Virus record (IMG/VR): IMGVR_UViG_3300024518_001724
Span: 1-20,425 of that record
Origin: a virus
Reading direction: 5' to 3' (one strand)
DNA: 20,425 nucleotides
Part shown: positions 63-13,154 of the stretch, piece by piece
Layout of the letters: every line of letters starts with the position of its first letter
How positions within the stretch are numbered: the first letter of the stretch is position 1
Program-made: the position numbers and the translations under genes
Notes under the pieces: generated by a model
Database searches by the model: none
Told to the model about the DNA's origin: nothing
Seen by the model: only the letters and a program-made list of their open reading frames with translations

Positions 63-158
63 CGCTAACGATTTAGCTATGGTGAGAAGCTGCACCATTC
101 AATGTCAGCTATAACAAAACAGGGTGATTGCAGCTTTTCATTATAGCGTGTGTTACCC
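63..158 (+). other. attC-like recombination site 1
   Basis: R''-like box CGCTAAC (63-69) and R'-like box GTTACCC (152-158) enclose a long imperfect hairpin. Arm 76-94 pairs with 129-147 over 19 positions, 16 Watson-Crick and 3 G-T, leaving a 34-nt loop. The arms start AGCTAT and end ATAGCG, as in the sites at 1189 and 6050. Length is 96 nt; known integron attC sites span roughly 57-141 nt. The inferred cut G152|T153 is the left end of cassette 1. R' departs from the classical GTTRRRY consensus after GTTA. Confidence 0.68.
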
Positions 159-180
159 ATCTTTTAAAATTACGGATATG
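158..180 (+). repeat. 23-nt cassette leader repeat, copy 1
   Basis: The stretch from CATCTTTTAAAATTACGG to the start codon at 178-180 is identical to 937-959. Both copies begin at the last base of the R' box or directly after it and end in the ATG of the cassette ORF. This indicates a shared 5' leader brought in with the cassette and sets both translation starts. Confidence 0.8.
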
Positions 181-420
181 TTAATAGAAGAAACTAAATG
201 GATGAAAAATTTACTCCCAGACGATTACACATGTGAACCAAGAGAAAACGGAGTACACTGTCACAGCCAAGAAGGTATTGCAGATGATAAAGGCTTATGT
301 GATCACTTTGATTTGATATGTAAAGCAATCGAGCAAAAGTTTGGAGATAGATTCATGGAAATTTTTCATCAAACGAATACCTATCATAGAAGATTTACGG
401 TCTATATCAGACCTGAGTAA
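178..420 (+). CDS. Hypothetical cassette-borne protein (80 aa)
   Basis: This 80-residue protein begins MLIEETKWMKNLL. I do not recognise a family. It is hydrophilic, has no membrane segment or signal peptide, and contains two Cys/His-containing stretches (TCEP...HCHSQ near residues 20-30 and LCDHFDLIC near 40-50) that may be coincidental. The start at 178 is preferred to an in-frame GTG at 124 because 158-180 is duplicated exactly at 937-959, where it ends in the ATG of another cassette ORF, and because the GTG lies within the attC-like hairpin. It is the only ORF of cassette 1, and its stop lies 10 bases before the R'' box. Confidence 0.62.
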   Translation: MLIEETKWMKNLLPDDYTCEPRENGVHCHSQEGIADDKGLCDHFDLICKAIEQKFGDRFMEIFHQTNTYHRRFTVYIRPE

Positions 421-430
421 TTTTTATTGT

Positions 431-521
431 GGGTAACGACCCAAATAAGGTGATGTGACCACCTGCAAACGTCACTATAACCGCTACAATCAAAGGTCAT
501 TCACCTTATTGTTTGTTAGCA
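431..521 (+). other. attC-like recombination site 2
   Basis: R''-like GGGTAAC (431-437) is the exact complement of the box that opens cassette 1. R'-like GTTAGCA is at 515-521. Between them 444-453 pairs perfectly with 501-510 (10 bp), then a 2-versus-1 bulge, then 456-460 with 495-499 (5 bp), leaving a 34-nt loop. Total length is 91 nt. Bulged stems of this kind are typical of folded attC sites. Confidence 0.68.
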
Positions 522-535
522 AAAGTTACAGAGAG

Positions 536-838
536 ATGGATTACATCAAAACACTAAAAGACTTCTATGGGATTGGAAGAGAAGCATTGCATTTAATTTC
601 TGGAATATCAGCAGATGCATTAATGAGGTATGAAAAAGGGGAAGAAGCGCCTCGCAAATACAGAATGCTTTTAAATGCAATGCTGGACATACCTACTTTC
701 GAGACATTTTTTCATTTATCCAAAGGACTTTTGAATGCATCAGATATTGATAAGATTGAAAAGAAAATAGTCGAAGAAATGAAATGGAGAGAAAGGCAAG
801 TAAGGGAATATCGCAAAGAGTCGATGAACGTTGGCTAA
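536..838 (+). CDS. Small XRE/HTH-like regulator or antitoxin-like protein
   Basis: This 100-residue protein begins MDYIKTLKDFYG. Residues of about 8-50 read as a helix-turn-helix of the XRE/HTH_3 type: ISGISADALMRYEKGEEAPR has the pattern of recognition helix, R-Y-E-x-G, then a basic or proline turn, as seen in the DNA-binding half of MqsA/YgiT-like antitoxins. The C-terminal third is charged and probably helical (IEKKIVEEMKWRERQVREYR). No toxin partner is adjacent. The start at 536 is chosen because the upstream GTG at 455 lies inside the attC-like hairpin, while 536 is 15 bases after the R' box. The gene is the sole ORF of cassette 2; the stop is 4 bases before its R'' box. Confidence 0.66.
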   Translation: MDYIKTLKDFYGIGREALHLISGISADALMRYEKGEEAPRKYRMLLNAMLDIPTFETFFHLSKGLLNASDIDKIEKKIVEEMKWRERQVREYRKESMNVG

Positions 839-842
839 TTTT

Positions 843-937
843 TGCTAACGTTGGTAATAAAATGTAGTAAAGCAACTGCGACACTTGAATAAAAGCACAA
901 GCCTAACATGCTTTATTCATTTTATTTATTGTTAGGC
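843..937 (+). other. attC-like recombination site 3
   Basis: R''-like TGCTAAC (843-849) matches the complement of the cassette 2 start (10 bases if extended). R'-like GTTAGGC (931-937) fits the classical GTTRRRY. The stem pairs 856-864 with 918-926 (9 bp) and 868-873 with 910-915 (6 bp) across a 3-versus-2 internal loop. Length is 95 nt. The loop contains GCCTAAC (901-907), identical to the R'' box of the next cassette; I cannot say whether this is chance. Confidence 0.66.
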
Positions 938-959
938 ATCTTTTAAAATTACGGATATG
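937..959 (+). repeat. 23-nt cassette leader repeat, copy 2
   Basis: Exact copy of 158-180, again placed immediately after an R' box and ending in a start codon (957-959). Confidence 0.8.
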
Positions 960-1175
960 AAAAACGTGAAATTAAAAAAGAAAATTTTATTAGACTTGCG
1001 ATTATTAATAATTGCGATACCCTCATTTATTACTGGCTTTCTAAGTAGCCCCTTTGTAGAAAATAAAATTTTTGACATAGCCCCCGTATTGAGCGGAATA
1101 AGTGGCGCTCCTGCATTGTTAATAATATTGTATTTAATTATAAGTTGGATGTTTTATGATATACTGTATAAGTAG
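957..1175 (+). CDS. Small two-helix membrane protein (cassette-borne)
   Basis: This 72-residue protein has a basic N-terminus (MKNVKLKKK) and two predicted hydrophobic segments, about residues 12-31 (LLDLRLLIIAIPSFITGFL) and about 45-68 (ending LLIILYLIISWMFYDILY). I do not recognise the family. Function is unknown; small membrane proteins are common in integron cassettes and phage accessory loci. The start is fixed by the duplicated leader at 937-959. It is the only ORF of cassette 3, and its stop lies 13 bases before the R'' box GCCTAAC at 1189. Confidence 0.62.
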   Translation: MKNVKLKKKILLDLRLLIIAIPSFITGFLSSPFVENKIFDIAPVLSGISGAPALLIILYLIISWMFYDILYK

Positions 1176-1188
1176 TAATTTTCATTGT

Positions 1189-1247
1189 GCCTAACACTAA
1201 GCTATTAATCGTTGAGGAACGAAATGGTTCAATAGCGACTGTTGAAA
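1189..1247 (+). other. attC-like recombination site 4
   Basis: Compact 59-nt site: R''-like GCCTAAC (1189-1195, fits RYYYAAC), 4-nt spacer, AGCTATT (1200-1206) pairing with AATAGC (1231-1236), inner GAAC/GTTC (1217-1220 with 1227-1230), 3-nt spacer, R'-like GTTGAAA (1241-1247). It aligns without gaps to 6050-6108 at 38 of 59 positions, including the loop block TGAGG(A/G)ACGAA. It closes cassette 3; the unit to its right has no matching TTTCAAC box, so the array seems to end here. Confidence 0.7.
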
Positions 1248-1286
1248 GCCGTTCGTAGAATGGCGTGAAAATAAAGCAGATAGTTC

Positions 1287-1766: not shown

Positions 1767-2273
1767 ATGGAAGAAATTTGGAAAGACATAGAGGATTACA
1801 GAGGTGTGTACCAGGTCTCAAGCATTGGAAGAGTAAGAAGATTAAAGAGAATTAGAGAAAATATATTATCATGTGCCCCAAATACTAGCGGATATCCAAC
1901 AGTTCACTTATGCAAAAATGGAAAGCGATCGACAAAGACTGTGCATAGATTAATAGCTCAAGCATTCATTCCAAACCCAGAAAACAAACCCCAAATAAAT
2001 CACAAAAACGGAATAAGACCTGATAATAGGTTAGAAAATTTGGAGTGGTGTACAAGCTCGGAAAACAACTTACACGCATATAGGACTTCAAAAAGGAAAG
2101 TTTTAAGAGGGGAGAATCACGGGATGAGCAAATCAGTTTTTGATAAATCAACAGGAAACGTGTACGAATCTATTACTGCATCATCTTTAGCTATTGATAT
2201 GAAAGGCATTACTGTTTGGAGAATGGTAACAGGAATAAGTCCTAACAAAACGAATTTAACTTTGGTAAAATGA
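1767..2273 (+). CDS. NUMOD4 and HNH homing-type endonuclease
   Basis: This 168-residue free-standing nuclease has an N-terminal NUMOD4-type DNA-binding domain (residues about 3-50: EIWKDIEDYRGVYQVSSIGR) and an HNH_3-type core with HRLIAQAFIPNP (60-71), INHKNG (77-82), NRLENLEWCT (87-96) and ENNLHAY (99-105). H79 and N91/N100 are candidate metal-site residues. The C-terminal 50 residues look like a NUMOD1-type helix-turn-helix. Such nucleases make site-specific double-strand breaks and spread selfishly in phages. It is inserted in an otherwise overlapping chain with a 35-nt gap before it; its stop still overlaps the next ATG. Length is normal for the family. Confidence 0.92.
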   Translation: MEEIWKDIEDYRGVYQVSSIGRVRRLKRIRENILSCAPNTSGYPTVHLCKNGKRSTKTVHRLIAQAFIPNPENKPQINHKNGIRPDNRLENLEWCTSSENNLHAYRTSKRKVLRGENHGMSKSVFDKSTGNVYESITASSLAIDMKGITVWRMVTGISPNKTNLTLVK

Positions 2274-2449
2274 ATAAATATAAGCTTAGCGCAGGGAAAA
2301 AGTTCTTATTAATAGTTGTTGCGGCCGGGATAGCTTTTCAAATATATTGGATAGCATCACCTGAAGCTCCTTATCTAATTACATGGGTTTCGCTTAACAT
2401 AGTATTGGCCGGGCTGCTTGCCATATTCTTTTTATGTAAAAAATGTTGA
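2270..2449 (+). CDS. Small membrane protein (59 aa)
   Basis: It starts at ATG 2270, overlapping the HNH stop (ATGA). The product has a basic N-terminus (MNKYKLSAGKK), a hydrophobic segment at about 12-28 and a second at about 36-55 ending FFLCKKC, so two predicted membrane helices with a short loop. No family is recognised. Start/stop overlap and composition support coding. It is one of a run of membrane microproteins here. Confidence 0.64.
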   Translation: MNKYKLSAGKKFLLIVVAAGIAFQIYWIASPEAPYLITWVSLNIVLAGLLAIFFLCKKC

Positions 2450-2450
2450 G

Positions 2451-2825
2451 ATGATAGATCCGAATGAAATAATGATGGGTAATTGGGTTTCTTATGATGG
2501 GAACCCATATCGAGTTATCGGAATACATTCTGTTCCGATATTAGACACTATTCTATATGGGATCGGTGTGGTTGAATGGAATGATTTAGACCCCATTCTA
2601 TTAGACGAAGAGTGGCTTTTGAAGTTCGGGTTTGATAAGGAAGATAGTTTAACATTCAAAAAAGACTGGTTTGAATTATGGGGTTCTTCATATTCCGGGG
2701 ATTATCAATTACGGATTTACAAAGTAGGCAATGACTACGAGAAGATTATAAACATAAAATATGTCCACACGCTCCAAAACCTTTACAAATCTTTAATAGG
2801 GGATAAATTAGAAATACAGGAATGA
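2451..2825 (+). CDS. Conserved Bacteroidota phage or mobile-element protein of unknown function
   Basis: This 124-residue protein begins MIDPNEIMMGNWVSYDG. The phrase EEWLLKFGF near residue 50 and the C-terminal YVHTLQNLYKSLIGDKLEI match, from memory, a protein family common in Bacteroidota prophages and elements, usually with a tyrosine-rich middle and the ending VHxLQNLYxxLxGxEL. The function of the family is unknown to me. The start at 2451 is preferred to a TTG at 2418 because 2418 lies within the preceding membrane gene and 2451 follows that stop by one base. Its stop overlaps the next ATG. Confidence 0.8.
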   Translation: MIDPNEIMMGNWVSYDGNPYRVIGIHSVPILDTILYGIGVVEWNDLDPILLDEEWLLKFGFDKEDSLTFKKDWFELWGSSYSGDYQLRIYKVGNDYEKIINIKYVHTLQNLYKSLIGDKLEIQE

Positions 2826-3124
2826 GCAAATACTGGTTCGATAAAAAACATCCTGAAAGCTGTTACCCAATTAAAAGGCATAGAGAAGAAATGCTCGAAA
2901 ACAATGAGCCCGAAAGGACATTGATTGGCGCAAAAGCCATAATTGGCGAAGGTATTTATTACTGTACCAAATACGGCGAGCCGGGAGATAGCGGCGATGG
3001 GATGTGTGGTAAAATATGTGATGGTTATAATCCACGGAACGGCAAAAACGGGAGGTGTTTGCATTCTGGGTATTGTTACGAACCGACCAAGGAAACGAAA
3101 ACAATCAAAATCAATATCGAATGA
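2822..3124 (+). CDS. Cysteine-rich small protein (100 aa)
   Basis: ATG 2822 overlaps the previous stop (ATGA). The product carries eight cysteines, seven of them between residues 48 and 86, including YYCTKYGEPG, MCGKICDGYNP and RCLHSGYCYEP. The pattern suggests a small zinc-knuckle or disulfide-stabilised fold, but it does not match a motif I can name. There is no signal peptide, so cytoplasmic metal binding is likelier than disulfides. Its final codons overlap the next start at 3121. Alternative frames at 2943 and 3055 are shadows. Confidence 0.7.
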   Translation: MSKYWFDKKHPESCYPIKRHREEMLENNEPERTLIGAKAIIGEGIYYCTKYGEPGDSGDGMCGKICDGYNPRNGKNGRCLHSGYCYEPTKETKTIKINIE

Positions 3125-5009: not shown

Positions 5010-5279
5010 ATGAAGAAACACGTTAAATTATATCATGACAAGCTCGGTTACTACTATGGTGAATTCATACCATGTGAGGTTTGTGGGGGCAAAAGTGTTG
5101 ACATCCATCACATTGACTCGAGAGGCATGGGAGGATCAGGCAGAAAGGATTTTATCAACAATGTCCAGGCATTATGTAGGCACTGCCATATCGAATATGG
5201 AGATAAAAAGCAGCATATAGAATTTCTAATACAAAAACATGTTAAAACAATCGAAAGAAGAACAAAAAAACGAGCTTAA
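5010..5279 (+). CDS. HNH endonuclease (89 aa)
   Basis: Compact HNH nuclease: CEVCGG (C22, C25) and CRHCH (C56, C59) form the structural zinc site; VDIHHIDSRG (H33/H34), a central N50/N51 and H60 make the beta-beta-alpha metal catalytic core. Length is about the minimal HNH domain. HNH proteins encoded close to phage terminases often assist packaging cleavage, but here it is about 1.6 kb upstream of the terminase, so its role may instead be selfish or defensive. It begins 14 bases after a GC-rich stem-loop. The frame at 5035-5220 is a shadow. Confidence 0.9.
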   Translation: MKKHVKLYHDKLGYYYGEFIPCEVCGGKSVDIHHIDSRGMGGSGRKDFINNVQALCRHCHIEYGDKKQHIEFLIQKHVKTIERRTKKRA

Positions 5280-6913: not shown

Positions 6914-7279
6914 ATGGCAGGCAGACCACCTAAATACAAAACAGTAGAAGAACTTCAAACAGCTATTGATAAATACTTTGAAGATGTAGCCAATGAAGAA
7001 AAACCCACAGTAACTGGGTTAGCTTATCATTTAGGGTTCACAAGTAGGCAGTCAATCTATGATTTCGAGACTAAGAAAAAGAAAGTATTTGCTTACACTA
7101 TAAAAAGAGCGGTCCTAAAAATAGAGCATAAACACGAGTTAGGGCTATATAATCAAAGTAATGCGGGTCATATCTTTTGGTTAAAGAACAGGCGTTGGAG
7201 CGATAAACAAGAGATTAAGCATTCAGGCGAAATAACAGGTTTTAACTATGTCGATAGTAACGATAAGGCCGACGGCTAA
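6914..7279 (+). CDS. Terminase small subunit (GP3_package/P22 gp3-like)
   Basis: This 121-residue DNA-recognition subunit of the packaging motor binds the packaging start site and recruits the large subunit. MAGRPPKYKTVEELQTAIDK at the N-terminus, TVTGLAYHLGFTSRQSIYDF (an HTH-like segment at residues about 33-52), a lysine-rich linker, FAYTIKRAVLKIEH and the closing HIFWLKNRRWSDKQEIKHSG are typical of the gp3-type DNA-packaging family. Its end overlaps the large subunit by 32 bases, the usual arrangement. The start follows the small-gene chain with no clear promoter of its own. Confidence 0.9.
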   Translation: MAGRPPKYKTVEELQTAIDKYFEDVANEEKPTVTGLAYHLGFTSRQSIYDFETKKKKVFAYTIKRAVLKIEHKHELGLYNQSNAGHIFWLKNRRWSDKQEIKHSGEITGFNYVDSNDKADG

Positions 7280-8558
7280 ACAGCATGAGGCATGGCAAGC
7301 ATTAAAAACTAAAGACACTGTATTTTTAGGAGGCGGGGCCGGCGGTGGCAAATCATGGCTCATATGCGAAACCCGGTTAGCGAATTGCTATTTTTATCCC
7401 GGTTATAAATCCTTCATAGCACGCGAAGAGCTTAAACGGCTCATGCAGTCTACTTTTATTACTTGGTCGAAGGTCTGCAAATTCCACGGGATACCCCCAA
7501 ACGATTGGAAGCTAAACTCTATGTACAATTATATTGAGTTCTTTAACGGCTCACGGATAGACCTTTTAGATTGCGCTTATAAGCCGTCAGATCCGTTGTA
7601 TGAACGTTTCGGCTCATTAGAGTACTCAGACGGAGCATTAGAGGAGGCGGGCGAAATACATCACCTGGCATATGATGTTTTAAAGTCCAGGATAGGTAGG
7701 CACATGACAGACGAAGTAAGGCCCACAATGCTGATCACAGGAAACCCCAAAAAGAATTGGACTTACACTACTTTTTACAAGCCGTGGAAAGAAAATATCC
7801 TCCCGGACGGCATAGCATTCATTCAAAGCCTTTACAACGATAACCCACACACGGCAAAGACTTATAAAAAGCAATTAGAGGGCATTACAGATCAATCAAT
7901 CAAAGAAAGGCTAATGTTCGGGAACTGGGACTACGACGATGATCCGAGCGCTCTTATTGACTATGATGCTGTTTGTGATATGTTCACTAATGACCACGTG
8001 CCAAAAGGAGATAAGATGATCAGTGCAGATTTAGCTATGCAAGGGCGTGACAGGTTCATAGCAGGACTATGGTCAGGTATGAGGGTATCTATACCCATAG
8101 ACAAAGAAAAAGCCACAGGCAAGGAAATTGAACGCGATTTAACCAATCTTAAGAACACAGAGAAAGTAGGAAACTCTAAGATTATAGCAGACAGCGACGG
8201 TTTAGGAGCTTACCTGGATAGCTACATCCGGAACATTAAAGCCTTTCATGGCGGTGCAAGTGCAAATAATAAGAATGAATTTGTTAACTTTAAAAGCGAA
8301 TGTGGTTTTAAGCTTGCCGAAAAGATCCAGAACAGGGAGATTAAAATTATATGTTCAAAAGACCAGGAGGAACGCATTAAAACAGAAATAAGCGTCTGTT
8401 TGAAGCGTCACAACATGGATAAGGACGAAACAAAGAAGCGATTAATACCAAAAGACAAGATGAAAGAACTATTGGGGCATTCGCCTGATTACTTGGATAT
8501 GCTGCTAATGGGCATGTATTTCGAAATAGACAATAGAGTTGAATTCCAAGTGGCATGA
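7248..8558 (+). CDS. terL: Terminase large subunit
   Basis: This 436-residue ATPase/nuclease drives DNA into the prohead and cuts it into genome lengths. ATPase domain: Walker A GGGAGGGKS (28-36), Walker B region with catalytic glutamate in DGALEEAGEIHH (128-139), coupling motif TGNPKK (164-169). RNase H-like nuclease domain: D261 in ISADLAMQGRD, D315/D317 in IIADSDGLG, D414/D417 in HSPDYLDMLLMG. Length is normal for phage TerL (about 400-600). It overlaps the small subunit and ends with ATGA into a 24-aa ORF. Confidence 0.96.
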   Translation: MSIVTIRPTAKQHEAWQALKTKDTVFLGGGAGGGKSWLICETRLANCYFYPGYKSFIAREELKRLMQSTFITWSKVCKFHGIPPNDWKLNSMYNYIEFFNGSRIDLLDCAYKPSDPLYERFGSLEYSDGALEEAGEIHHLAYDVLKSRIGRHMTDEVRPTMLITGNPKKNWTYTTFYKPWKENILPDGIAFIQSLYNDNPHTAKTYKKQLEGITDQSIKERLMFGNWDYDDDPSALIDYDAVCDMFTNDHVPKGDKMISADLAMQGRDRFIAGLWSGMRVSIPIDKEKATGKEIERDLTNLKNTEKVGNSKIIADSDGLGAYLDSYIRNIKAFHGGASANNKNEFVNFKSECGFKLAEKIQNREIKIICSKDQEERIKTEISVCLKRHNMDKDETKKRLIPKDKMKELLGHSPDYLDMLLMGMYFEIDNRVEFQVA

Positions 8559-8629: not shown

Positions 8630-8874
8630 TAGCAATAGCAAAGAAAGACATTAGCCCCTTAATAAAAAAAGGAACTATCTTAGTAAAAAAGAAAGTGAGG
8701 CACCCCGATCATGGATTGCGGTTCTTTGGCATCATGCGGGGTTATGATGAATGTCTTTATATAGAGTGTACGCATTGGGTCATGTTCGAGGAAAGAACGG
8801 TAAAGCCTCCCAATTACTACACGTGGAGATTGATAGAAGCAAATAGGGAATGGTTTAAAATTAGCAAAGAATGA
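8626..8874 (+). CDS. Hypothetical protein between terminase and portal (82 aa)
   Basis: Soluble, basic-aromatic protein: MIAIAKKDISPLIKKGTILV, then ECTHWVMFEERTVKPPNYYT. The opening (a K-G-T-ILVKK strand pattern) suggests a small beta-barrel-like fold, but I cannot name a family. It overlaps the portal start by ATGA. Confidence 0.62.
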   Translation: MIAIAKKDISPLIKKGTILVKKKVRHPDHGLRFFGIMRGYDECLYIECTHWVMFEERTVKPPNYYTWRLIEANREWFKISKE

Positions 8875-10301
8875 ATTGGTTTCAAAAACAATTATTACCC
8901 AAACAGGTCAAGCAAATAATATTACAGGCCGAATCCGGGGATGTGATAAAGGCCATGTTCCAAATATTCGGCAATAATGTAACCCTGATAAACGAGAATA
9001 CAGATCAATATATAAAGTCTGGATATCTTGGTAATGCAGATATCTATTCTATTGTACGGCAAATATCAAGATCATGCTCGATCCCTGAATGGGAGCTTTT
9101 CGAAATAAAGAACGAAAAAGCACATGCCGACTATGTGAGGTTAAAGCAAGACGGCTCGGAGGCGTCGCTGTTCAAGGCCATGAAGTTAAAAGGCGAAGCT
9201 TTGGAGCAAGTAGAAAACCCTGAAATACAAAAGCTTTTTGTACAACCAAACCCCTTACAGGGATGGACAGAATTTATTGAGTTAAGCACTGTATTTAGGT
9301 TGATAACAGGCAACAGGTACTGGAAAGGATCGGCCCCTGAATTTGGCGCTAATGCAGGCAAATGGCAGGAACTTTTTGTATTGCCAGCCCAACATGTAGA
9401 GATACTTCCAGGTGACAACATACTCGAACCAATCAGGGGGTACAGGTTTAACTTTAACCCTTCCGATGAATTTGATGCCGAAGACGTAAGCCATTCGAAG
9501 TATCCTAATCCTGATTTTGTGGCGGGAACGGGGTCTAACTTTTACGGCCTTTCACCTTTAAGGCCCGGCAGGACTGTATTAACGAAGTCCAATGATGGGT
9601 ATGAGGCAAGCGCCAGGCTATTGCAAAACTCCGGGGTTATGGGAATTGTGTCGGGTGCAAAAGAAGCGACCGCGCAACCTGGGGACATGGATATACAAGC
9701 TATCAAGTCAAAGTTTGAACAAAAGTCACGGCCTGAAAACTACGGCAAGCTGGCATGGACAAACGCGATGCTGAACTACATCCAAATGGGTATGAACGCC
9801 AACGAACTGGGGTTGAACGAAGGGCAAATGCTTTCGTTGAGGCAGGCATGTAATATTTACAACTATCCATCAGAACTGTTAAACGACAAGGTAAGCGCTA
9901 AATACAATTCCTTTAAAGAAGCCAAAAAGAGTGCAATCATCAACGCGGTATTGCCAGAACTTAACCTGGATAGGGATTCACTCAATACGTGGTACTTGGA
10001 ACCATGGAGGAAAGCAGACCGGAAGAACTACTTTTTAGATTATGAGGTGAATTCATTCCCTGAAATGCAGGAAGATTTAGGGAAACTTTGGGCAAGGATC
10101 GATACAAGTACAGAGCTGACATTGAACGAAAAAAGGAAATTGAAAGGCTTTGACGAAAGAACAGAACCGGGCATGGACGACATATGGCTTCCTTTTAACT
10201 TAACGCCAATGCAGGGCTTTGGCAACACGGACACCACGGAGTTAGACGAAACATTGAAAGCATTGGGAATAACTGAATACGCTTCAAATGGTGTACATTA
10301 A
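8871..10301 (+). CDS. Portal protein, HK97-like family
   Basis: This 476-residue protein forms the dodecameric ring at the capsid vertex through which DNA enters and leaves. Supporting stretches are YSIVRQISRSCSIPEWELF near residue 62, VENPEIQKLFVQPNPLQGWT (about 114-133), FYGLSPLRPGRTVL (about 224-237), and QACNIYNYPSELLNDKVSAKYNS with LPELNLDRDSLNTWYLEP toward the C-terminus, all typical of HK97-type (Phage_portal) proteins. Length is in the normal range. Stop and next start overlap as TAATG. Confidence 0.93.
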   Translation: MNWFQKQLLPKQVKQIILQAESGDVIKAMFQIFGNNVTLINENTDQYIKSGYLGNADIYSIVRQISRSCSIPEWELFEIKNEKAHADYVRLKQDGSEASLFKAMKLKGEALEQVENPEIQKLFVQPNPLQGWTEFIELSTVFRLITGNRYWKGSAPEFGANAGKWQELFVLPAQHVEILPGDNILEPIRGYRFNFNPSDEFDAEDVSHSKYPNPDFVAGTGSNFYGLSPLRPGRTVLTKSNDGYEASARLLQNSGVMGIVSGAKEATAQPGDMDIQAIKSKFEQKSRPENYGKLAWTNAMLNYIQMGMNANELGLNEGQMLSLRQACNIYNYPSELLNDKVSAKYNSFKEAKKSAIINAVLPELNLDRDSLNTWYLEPWRKADRKNYFLDYEVNSFPEMQEDLGKLWARIDTSTELTLNEKRKLKGFDERTEPGMDDIWLPFNLTPMQGFGNTDTTELDETLKALGITEYASNGVH

Positions 10302-11116
10302 TGCCTGACACAGCTACCCAAATATGGCAAAACACAGACCGTAAGCGGGCGCGGTTCATGCCTTCGATAGAAAGGGCAACATTGCAAGCGTTAAGAATCC
10401 AGGCGAAACCTATATTTGATCTTTTTAATACAGGTATGGCCTTGGAAGATATCAAGGCACAAATAAAAGGGCTTATCCGTGAACCAGCCATAAAGGTATT
10501 GATCGATTCTATTTTTAACCGTGTAGGGATGGCGTTTGCAGATGATTCATTCCATGAAATAACCTCACAACTAAAACAAGACACTTTTATAGAATCCCAG
10601 ATAGAAGGAACCCTTCAAAGGATAATCCAGGTACAAGCGGCATTAGATATAACAGCAATCACAGAGACTACCCGCAATTGGCTTTCTTTAGAGATCCAAA
10701 GATACATCGAAGAGGGGTTAAGTATCCCAAATGCAGCGAAGGAACTTACGAAAAGGTTTGATTTCATAAGCAGGGCACGAGCTACGATGATAGCACGAAC
10801 AGAGATTATAAGCGCAAGCAACGCGGGAAGTTTGGCAGGCGCGGAAAGCACAGGATTGCCAGTTCAAAAGATATGGCTCACTGCCAGGGACAAGTCTGTA
10901 AGGGATTCACACATAATAACAGACGGCCAAAAAAGAAACCTAAAAGAGAACTTCAATGTCAATGGAAGCCCAGCCATGCAGCCTGGAGATCCAAAACTGC
11001 CAGCAGGCGAACGCGTTAATTGTAGGTGTACGATTATCTACCAAGTCGAAGGAAGGGACAGCCCACTTACAGAGCTTCAAAGGCCAGAGGTATTTGATTT
11101 CAGTCAGTTTGAATAA
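10301..11116 (+). CDS. Head morphogenesis protein (SPP1 gp7 / Mu F-like minor head protein)
   Basis: This 271-residue minor capsid protein of the MuF/SPP1 gp7 type probably sits inside the prohead near the portal and may be ejected with DNA. The C-terminal MuF domain is clear: ARATMIARTEIISASNAGSL (residues about 159-178), KIWLTARDKSVRDSHIITDG (about 190-209), and GERVNCRCTIIYQ (about 236-248), the NCRC motif being diagnostic. No additional toxin or enzyme domain follows. It is placed directly after the portal, as usual. Confidence 0.92.
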   Translation: MPDTATQIWQNTDRKRARFMPSIERATLQALRIQAKPIFDLFNTGMALEDIKAQIKGLIREPAIKVLIDSIFNRVGMAFADDSFHEITSQLKQDTFIESQIEGTLQRIIQVQAALDITAITETTRNWLSLEIQRYIEEGLSIPNAAKELTKRFDFISRARATMIARTEIISASNAGSLAGAESTGLPVQKIWLTARDKSVRDSHIITDGQKRNLKENFNVNGSPAMQPGDPKLPAGERVNCRCTIIYQVEGRDSPLTELQRPEVFDFSQFE

Positions 11117-11196: not shown

Positions 11197-11874
11197 ATGA
11201 TCTTATCAAAAAATTTCTCATACGAGATTAAAGACGTAGATGAGCCGCAAGGGATTGTTACTATCTATGTAAATTCATTCGATAAGGAAGATTCGGACGG
11301 CGACATATCTCATAAATCATCATTTAACAGGACAATTAAAAACGAATTCAATCGGATTAAACATTTCAGAAACCACAACCCTGATCAAAACATAGGATTA
11401 CCAAAAGAAATGCAAGCAGATGATTTCGGGCTAAAAGTGGTTAGCCAGTTAAATATGGAAAAAGAACTGGCAAGGGATGTATTTTCAGACTATAAATTAC
11501 ATGCTGAATTAAACAGGTCAATGGAGCATTCTATTGGGTTTAATGTAATGCAAAGGGACGCGAAAGACAAAAAAATAATAACAGAGTACAAGTTGTGGGA
11601 ATACTCAAGTCTTTCGCATTGGGGGGCAAATCAGGATACGCCACAAGTGGATGCAAAGGATTTATCAAGGGATGATATCATAGATCAGATATACTACATA
11701 TCTAAAGCATTTGAAAAAGCAGATTTCACAGATGCTAAATTCAGAAAATTAGAACAAAACATGGTCGAGCTTACTAAAGCTTACGAACTCGTTAAGGACT
11801 CACAAACTCCTTTCATAACGACTGACAATAAAGACCTGGAAGCAATTAAATATTTTAAACAAATTTTAAACTAA
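11197..11874 (+). CDS. Prohead protease (HK97/S78 family)
   Basis: This 225-residue serine protease matures the capsid by removing the N-terminal scaffold (delta) domain of the major capsid protein. GIVTIYVNSFDKEDSDGD (residues about 19-36), a histidine in IKHFRNHNPDQNIG (H56 or H60) and EHSIGFNV with S112 match the family's His and Ser active-site segments; LWEYSSLSHWGANQDTP (about 133-149) is the conserved segment after the catalytic core. The capsid gene follows with a TAATG overlap. It has its own upstream promoter, in keeping with high demand for protease and capsid. Confidence 0.93.
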   Translation: MILSKNFSYEIKDVDEPQGIVTIYVNSFDKEDSDGDISHKSSFNRTIKNEFNRIKHFRNHNPDQNIGLPKEMQADDFGLKVVSQLNMEKELARDVFSDYKLHAELNRSMEHSIGFNVMQRDAKDKKIITEYKLWEYSSLSHWGANQDTPQVDAKDLSRDDIIDQIYYISKAFEKADFTDAKFRKLEQNMVELTKAYELVKDSQTPFITTDNKDLEAIKYFKQILN

Positions 11875-13154
11875 TGGCAGAAGAAATTAGTGACGTTCTA
11901 AAGCAAGAGCTGAAGGACATCAACGACAACATAACCGCAAAAACCGATAAGCTCAAAAAAGATATCGGCGAAGTGGCGGACGAAAAAGCATCGGCTTTAA
12001 TAGCCACCTATAAAGAAGAGCAAGGCGCTTTACAGGTTGAGCTTGACAAAAAGCAGGCCGAAAAAGATACGGTAATGCAAAAGCAGCTCGACGATATCGA
12101 CAAAAGATATAAAGAGCAAAAAGCAATTGTACCGGCTAACATGTCCTTAAAAAACAGGATCATAACAGATCTTAAAGGATCAGATAAGCTCATTGAGCAT
12201 ATCAAAAACATTGATGCCAAAAAAGGAAGCAATAACTTTAGTATGGACATGAAGGTAGTCGGTGATATGTCAAGCGGGAACGCAACTACCTCGATAACAG
12301 ATGAATTTGCACCTGGAATGTTAGAGGCAGGGGTTAACCGCGTTGCAAAAAGACAAACTTTTGTACAGTCTTTGATCAACACGGGAACGCTTACCAACAC
12401 AAGAACGGTTTCATGGTATGAGCAAACAACTTCCGAGGGAGGCGTTGCAAACCGTGCCGAAGCTGCTGAAATGGCACAGGTAGATTACGATTGGGTTCGA
12501 CAGGAAGAAGCTTTAAAGTTCATTTCAGGATATACCAAGGTAACCAACGAAGCTTTGGCCGATTGGGGACAAATGGCGACTGAGATACAATTCGAACTTT
12601 TCAGGGACTTGTCTTTGAAGCTTGATGACCAACTTCTTAACGGTGATGGAATAACCGTAAACATTGATGGTATATTGAGCAAGGCGACAGCGTTTGCAGC
12701 GGGTAATTTTGCTTTAGGAATCGAAAGCGCACAGCATTTCGATGTGTTGAGGGTAGCTATAAACCAAATTATTTTGGCCAATTTCTTCCCTACGGCTATT
12801 GTTCTTAACCCTGACGATGCCGCTACTTTGGATTTACTTAAAATAGCAGATAATCGTTATTTGTTAGCGCCGTTTGTAAGCGCCGACAATACGATTATAA
12901 AAGGTATTCCAATTGTTGAGAATTCAGGAATCGCTACTGATAACTTCCTTGTAATGGATGGATCACGGGCAACTGCTTTCTTCCGTCAAGGAATTACGTT
13001 GAGGATTTGGGATCAATCAGATGATGATCCAAGATTCAACCGTCAAACAATGACCGCCAATGTTGAGGCATTGCTAAGGATTAAAGGCAATGATGTACCC
13101 GCATTTGTAACAGGTGATTTCACAACTGCTAAAGCGGCCTTAGAAACTGTATAA
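11874..13154 (+). CDS. Major capsid protein, HK97 fold, with scaffold-like N-terminus
   Basis: This 426-residue protein is the main shell subunit. Residues about 1-85 form a charged coiled coil (DVLKQELKDINDNITAKTDK ... ELDKKQAEKDTVMQKQLDDI), the delta/scaffold region usually cut off by the upstream protease. From about residue 115 the HK97 core follows: TSITDEFAPGMLEAGVNRVA, RTVSWYEQTTSEGGVANRAE, AQVDYDWVRQEEALKFISGY, LSLKLDDQLLNGDG and a C-terminal RIWDQSDDDPRFNRQTMTAN. All are typical of HK97 gp5-like proteins. Its stop overlaps the next ATG (TAATG). Confidence 0.95.
   Translation: MAEEISDVLKQELKDINDNITAKTDKLKKDIGEVADEKASALIATYKEEQGALQVELDKKQAEKDTVMQKQLDDIDKRYKEQKAIVPANMSLKNRIITDLKGSDKLIEHIKNIDAKKGSNNFSMDMKVVGDMSSGNATTSITDEFAPGMLEAGVNRVAKRQTFVQSLINTGTLTNTRTVSWYEQTTSEGGVANRAEAAEMAQVDYDWVRQEEALKFISGYTKVTNEALADWGQMATEIQFELFRDLSLKLDDQLLNGDGITVNIDGILSKATAFAAGNFALGIESAQHFDVLRVAINQIILANFFPTAIVLNPDDAATLDLLKIADNRYLLAPFVSADNTIIKGIPIVENSGIATDNFLVMDGSRATAFFRQGITLRIWDQSDDDPRFNRQTMTANVEALLRIKGNDVPAFVTGDFTTAKAALETV

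Follow-up and report, generated by a model that had tools for sequence, protein, structure and literature searches.

A probable integrase-less cassette array in a Bacteroidota tailed phage, with hairpin sites that appear to move together with the downstream gene

Canonical integron cassettes carry their attC site behind the gene and recombine at its R′ box. In phages, Qi et al. 2023 (PMC9892861) report integrons or attC clusters in 21 genomes, Polaribacter phage P12002L included, and recombination by IntI1 at one of two P12002L sites tested; a preliminary description of the present locus had held integron cassettes in phage DNA to be rarely described, which does not stand against these published clusters. 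Complementarity between the R′ and R″ boxes of the same cassette (own-box complementarity) has been found in 51 of 58 bacterial cassettes (PMC4909258), and complete integrons are almost unknown in Bacteroidota, with one in Salinibacter ruber (PMC9024848). For the VCR attC site, Bouvier et al. 2009 (PMC2727003) inverted the extrahelical bases and the central spacer and obtained recombination at R″, and a polarity of this kind is therefore physically possible. The Baltic ‘Moomin’ Flavobacterium phages were described by Nilsson et al. 2020 (PMC7077304), who connected plating efficiency with one methyltransferase; their main text uses none of the words integron, cassette and integrase.

The stretch of DNA analysed here (the window), a linear IMG/VR record of 20,425 bases, is a tailed-phage genome from position 1334 onwards, in which tail genes accompany the head and packaging genes (Table 1). 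Relatives of its terminase belong mostly to Bacteroides, Polaribacter, Flavobacterium and Cellulophaga phages, and include that of P12002L (35%). At the extreme left end of the contig, in positions 1–1247, three small ORFs are complete and a further one is present as its 3′ end only; with them lie three attC-like hairpins and, at the end of the array, a shorter hairpin. A search for relatives of the first phage gene 3′ of this array found none. Terminase relatives in IMG/VR (L121–L133) carry no array within the sequence parts examined; for L121, an exact match to the window terminase, the expected start is at about window position 2773, so the array region lies outside the comparison. Elsewhere in the phage part, an 89-aa HNH protein (5010–5279) resembles in part the IscB nuclease portion (E 6.4e-7, a long way under the family cut-off).

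Table 1 Features of the window, in contig coordinates
Feature	Position	Strand	Content or evidence
Further ORF, 3′ end, truncated by contig start	2..61	+	Translation, LKRIFKNYNPQPRPEGFGK then stop; stop codon 2 bases 5′ of R″ box 63-69
attC-like site 1	63..158	+	R″ CGCTAAC 63-69, hairpin, R′ GTTACCC 152-158; stem scan; covariance model E 8.3e-6
Leader of cassette 1	159..180	+	ATCTTTTAAAATTACGGATATG, including ORF1 start codon (ATG); 22 bases, identical to 938-959
Cassette ORF1	178..420	+	80 aa, no known family
attC-like site 2	431..521	+	R″ GGGTAAC 431-437, hairpin, R′ GTTAGCA 515-521; stem scan; marginal model match E 0.31
Cassette ORF2	536..838	+	100 aa; weakly like MqsA-type antitoxin helix-turn-helix (E 0.012, below cut-off)
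attC-like site 3	843..937	+	R″ TGCTAAC 843-849, hairpin, R′ GTTAGGC 931-937; covariance model E 2.8e-7
Leader of cassette 3	938..959	+	Identical to cassette 1 leader
Cassette ORF3	957..1175	+	72 aa, hydrophobic, no known family
Shared cassette tail and R″	1176..1195	+	TAATTTTCATTGT, R″ GCCTAAC 1189-1195
Array-terminal element	1189..1262	+	R″, short hairpin, CGACTGTTG, second stem (GCCGTTCGTAGAATGGC)
Phage genome	1334..20425	+	Tailed-phage genes listed below, and tail genes
HNH endonuclease	1767-2273	+	
Small-terminase-sized ORF	6914-7279	+	
Large terminase	7248-8558	+	
Portal	8871-10301	+	
Minor capsid	10301-11116	+	
Prohead protease	11197-11874	+	
Major capsid (HK97-type)	11874-13154	+	

The three sites have the R″/L″/L′/R′ layout of attC with a TAAC/GTTA core. 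A blind scan for TAAC…GTTA pairs with complementary arms returned sites 3, 1 and 2 as the best distinct plus-strand sites, and a covariance model trained on 21 sites of other phages, none of them from the window, matched these sites alone in the 20.4 kb. On 347 kb of other sequence its matches were confined to two Polaribacter phages, the class 1 and TJE1 attC sites included there being unmatched. By eye the sites are 91–96 nt long, AT-rich and end in GTTA; intrinsic terminators are short GC-rich stems followed by a T run. A scan of the window against Rfam matched no family. The 5′ arm has one extra base in sites 2 and 3 and none in site 1, and most sites of the wider family described below have two G/A mismatches. 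The hairpin and leader of site 3 are 93.6% identical over 109 bp to a viral contig (L014) in which the flanking genes differ on both sides.

In each of the three units, the R′ box ahead of the ORF is the exact reverse complement, 7/7, of the R″ box behind it (152–158/431–437, 515–521/843–849 and 931–937/1189–1195), and the complementarity extends to 8, 10 and 9 bases in units 1, 2 and 3, respectively; boxes within one site match at only 2 to 5 of 7 positions. Two consecutive own-box-matched sites occurred in none of 200 first-order Markov shuffles, and the window contains a chain of three. The preliminary description had pointed out these three pairs, which our recount and the shuffles bear out, and had proposed an attC covariance-model search, for which the model trained on phage sites served as a substitute, with the three matches above. 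It had also counted four hairpin sites between the three ORFs: three are attC-like, and the fourth (1189–1247) is instead a shorter array-terminal hairpin with a poor R′ box (GTTGAAA), unmatched by the covariance model. The first R″ is corrected here to CGCTAAC at 63–69. As had been remarked, the boxes fit GTTRRRY only in part; the RYYYAAC/GTTRRRY consensus is not followed, and the three R′ boxes are constant only in GTTA. Many verified attC sites deviate from it too, and the consensus is a weak guide.

Searches for relatives of the three cassette ORFs found none, and no copy of the window's cassettes turned up in other sequences; blastn of the array against phages and plasmids gave one 25-base chance match and nothing else. 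The exact leader and tail strings are absent from 84,980 genomes, a weak result in that it concerns exact strings only. Unrelated ORFs between near-identical leaders and tails occur in the window (159–180 and 938–959) and in L002, L003, L084 and L148, and in the pair L012/L109 the ORF alone is common (97.7%), with a different leader and downstream hairpin. On the sequences compared, both arrangements may be traces of how new cassettes are made. In L002 (minus strand, ~1384–885), a cassette that has the leader of the window is immediately preceded by an ORF that by eye resembles the Panacea/SocA (DUF4065) antitoxin family. Two-stem array-terminal elements, joined by (C/T)GACTGTTG or similar, were seen in the window and in L113, L068, L029 and G002 (L138), which are different phages.

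Further array-bearing viral contigs were found through the leader and the tail (TAATTTTYATTGT before R″); the tail pattern is loose, and many matches in unrelated coding sequence were set aside. Across these loci, 126 stems scored >=12 over both strands, compared with 2 in shuffled sequence. The 43 kb contig G008 has nine sites with a portal gene on one side and helicase and terminase genes on the other, G002 has its array between head and tail genes, and Flavobacterium phage 11b carries a chain at 2103–3057 ahead of terS-terL with exact own-box pairs in 3/3 cases. Many sites of the same family are present in Polaribacter phages P12002L and P12002S, and 9–14 in each of the Moomin phages. Such arrays between genuine phage genes, together with the gain and loss of units described below, strongly support cassette units that come and go at the boxes, and the window's array belongs to a family of cassette arrays of Bacteroidota phages.

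Two regularities run through this family. In the loci examined for it, own R′ and R″ boxes match 7/7 in 24 of 43 consecutive site pairs less than 1.5 kb apart, compared with 6 of 103 within single sites; the 24 are nearly all of the pairs that enclose a single ORF, and most of the others are spaced widely enough to hide a missed site. The hairpins are also marked by strand: the 5′ arm has G where the complemented 3′ arm has A. Where a site has at least two such marks they lie five bases apart in 52 of 67 cases, a count for which the mark itself picked the site orientation; orientation derived from the ORFs, which is independent of the mark, agrees with it 75 to 7. Half-sites, which lack L′ and R′ so that R″ and L″ run straight into an AT-rich leader and then the next ORF, are very common (L010, L012, L033, L057, L063, L081, L100 and others, as well as P12002L/S), and are either decayed sites or a simpler form of the site. 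In the Moomin phages (L164–L177; ~1.4–8.4 kb), large cassettes encode mostly DNA methyltransferases, and the complement varies between sister phages. Ahead of the G002 array (L138:10744) lies a Bacteroidota-type promoter, a promoter-like sequence (CAAAAGTTGCAATTGTC...TATCTTNTCTTTG) that recurs in front of the phage gene following the array.

No pairs differing by gain or loss of a unit were found among the IMG/VR contigs, P12002L/S being the sole candidates, and cultured sister phages were therefore compared: 14 Moomin phage records together with P12002L and P12002S. These gave 20 comparisons in which units were gained or lost, which we count as about 17 distinct events, some of them nested or multi-unit. 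After R″, the empty allele resembled the right-hand hairpin or anchor (identity 0.68–1.00) and not the left-hand one (0.23–0.47) in 20/20 comparisons, the upstream side being out of register and uninformative in 3 of the 20, and the overlap common to both alleles at the junctions was as short as TAAC. The unit therefore runs hairpin, R′, leader, ORF, R″. We had initially assumed the canonical unit, with the hairpin behind the gene, and dropped it on the P12002 and Moomin junctions. Under the same comparison a class 1 aadA1 control behaved canonically, its cassette starting at GTT with the hairpin behind the gene.

The P12002 pair illustrates these junctions. The two genomes are 97.8–99.9% identical over their longest common blocks (94.9% in one end block) and differ in their cassettes. 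A relocated 1,001-bp module (99.2% identical) stands behind different genes in P12002L and P12002S and has both edges in R″ boxes, at ...CAGGT|AACG versus ...TTGCT|AACG on one side and at ATACAAC|G on the opposite side. The R′ of the module is GTTGTAT, a match to its own R″. One further P12002 event has its breakpoint in L″, outside R″. Partial hairpin matches in IMG/VR have the same polarity: 32 of 39 end at R″ and pass through R′ into the leader, none does the opposite and the others are intermediate, with some of the 39 sharing a site and two being window site 3 (with its leader, in L014). In its sense (G on the 5′ side) the strand mark agrees with the extrahelical bases of canonical sites, and alone would predict crossover at R′, against the R″ crossover recorded here. 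The comparisons do not distinguish insertion of units from their deletion.

The 14 Moomin arrays have their first cassettes in common and all finish at one anchor, TAACTACAATATTACATG, which follows at least 8 different last cassettes. This pattern suggests that Moomin arrays may grow at the anchor, in an attI-like role; no attI site was recognised in the window. The preliminary description had proposed cassettes that circularise at G|TT, and had asked whether they vary between strains. Variation and the movement of units at boxes are borne out by the cultured relatives, and the crossover is not, lying in TAAC of R″ with the hairpin before the gene in all 20 comparisons; the earlier interpretation is partly supported, in its cassette units and not in their canonical integron form.

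The absence of a visible integrase, also remarked on earlier, holds for the array-bearing relatives searched. No tyrosine recombinase (PF00589) was matched in 25 array-bearing records, and no integron integrase scored above cut-off in 25; the window itself is a fragment cut at the array. In G005 (the L032 record), which has one attC-like site, the integron-integrase model matched positions 23097–23879 as two separate segments of 92 and 59 bits, both short of the cut-off; an in-frame TGA interrupts the second. On this analysis, the enzyme that moves the arrays would come from the host, from a co-infecting element or from an unrecognised family.

Several other explanations were weighed. The array might consist of ordinary integron cassettes (CALIN) from a bacterial integron, passively carried by the phage, with attC behind the gene and crossover at R′. 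Attractive in this respect are the attC-like sites with matching own boxes, which are the rule in bacterial cassettes too, the published phage CALINs and the IntI1 activity on one P12002L site. It is nevertheless unlikely, given that every one of the gain/loss comparisons places the crossover at R″ and assigns the hairpin to the gene downstream, in contrast to the canonical outcome of the class 1 control, that the phage-built model misses class 1 sites and, more weakly, that none of the genomes searched contains the leader or tail as an exact string. Marginally less likely again is that hairpins, leaders and tails are linkers between which phage homologous recombination (Erf, NinG and others) shuffles genes without any site-specific enzyme. 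Relatives do have Erf or NinG genes, different phages do have leaders, tails and hairpins in common, ORFs alone are swapped between leader and R″ as in L012/L109, and one P12002 breakpoint fell in L″; yet the junction overlap shrinks to TAAC, almost always the same TAAC, and perfect R′/R″ complementarity around each ORF would not survive free shuffling.

A purely RNA role of the hairpins, as terminators or as elements of processing or translation in place of recombination sites, is very improbable. The marked bases form G-U pairs on the transcribed-sense strand and the array-terminal element has two consecutive stems, as such a role might predict, but gain and loss of units take place precisely at the boxes, the R′ and R″ around an ORF match each other and not their partner within the hairpin, and no Rfam family was matched; an RNA role in addition to recombination is possible. 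An assembly chimera that joins array and phage genes from separate molecules is the least credible of all. The array does sit at the very end of a contig known from its sequence alone, but phage 11b carries the same type of array ahead of terS-terL, similar array-end elements recur in other viral contigs, and arrays lie inside other phage genomes.

With hairpins and own-box matching in place and units gained and lost at R″ in related phages, we consider it probable, at roughly 0.7, that an integrase-less mobile cassette array of a Bacteroidota tailed phage forms the left end of the window, and that in it the hairpin moves with the downstream gene by recombination at TAAC of R″. Each unit would comprise an attC-like hairpin, an R′ box, an AT-rich leader that contains the start codon, one small ORF and an R″ complementary to its own R′, a polarity that would be the mirror image of the canonical cassette. 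Units would be gained and lost through site-specific recombination inside TAAC of R″. By analogy with integrons, the hairpin would form from a single folded DNA strand and may be acted on by an integron-type tyrosine recombinase, supplied in trans by the host or a co-infecting element; the window's own units would move as those of its relatives do. Phage transcription likely expresses the cassette genes, since the promoter sequence of G002 recurs before the next phage gene. It is possible, at somewhat less than an even chance, that Bacteroidota phages share a phage-specific pool of reversed-polarity cassettes, moved about by an unrecognised recombinase, through which they exchange accessory genes such as DNA methyltransferases, in a system parallel to integrons and not part of them.

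Such arrays would give phages an integron-like route to acquire and drop single genes. They raise the questions of which recombinase moves cassettes in phages without one and of why crossover falls in the other box of a hairpin site that keeps the usual asymmetry, and the common leader and tail round unrelated ORFs bear on the origin of new cassettes. Phage-borne attC clusters are already published, P12002L among them; the reversed polarity, the cassettes of 11b and the Moomin phages and the common leader and tail appear to be new, no earlier report of them having been found in the open-access literature. Phage 11b and the Moomin phages are unnamed in the main-text parts of PMC9892861 that were searched.

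Among the closest described cases is P12002L, which, like the window, has integrase-less attC-like sites in a phage genome and whose sites belong to the window's array family. Qi et al. 2023 (PMC9892861) treat its sites as ordinary attC and note their divergent directions, whereas here the unit is a hairpin with the downstream gene, crossed at R″. The reverse integrons of Treponema denticola (PMC7691350, PMC4909258) are similar in having an unusual gene direction, but there it is the integrase gene that is inverted, and the cassette stop codon still lies at R″ with attC after the gene. Inverted VCR sites (PMC2727003) likewise recombine at R″, as natural phages do here; they are laboratory mutants with much reduced recombination, and their kind of inversion is not present in the marks of the phage sites. 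Class 1 cassettes (aadA1; R100, pSTM6-275) have in common with the window R″/L″/L′/R′ hairpins, TAAC/GTTA boxes, a longer 5′ arm and own-box complementarity, and differ in that the cassette starts at GTT with the hairpin behind the gene, that IntI1 adjoins the array and that the phage-built model finds no match in them. The array in the window works like an integron cassette array, yet we do not file it as a canonical one, because the gene-attC order and the crossover point, tested in its relatives, proved to be different.
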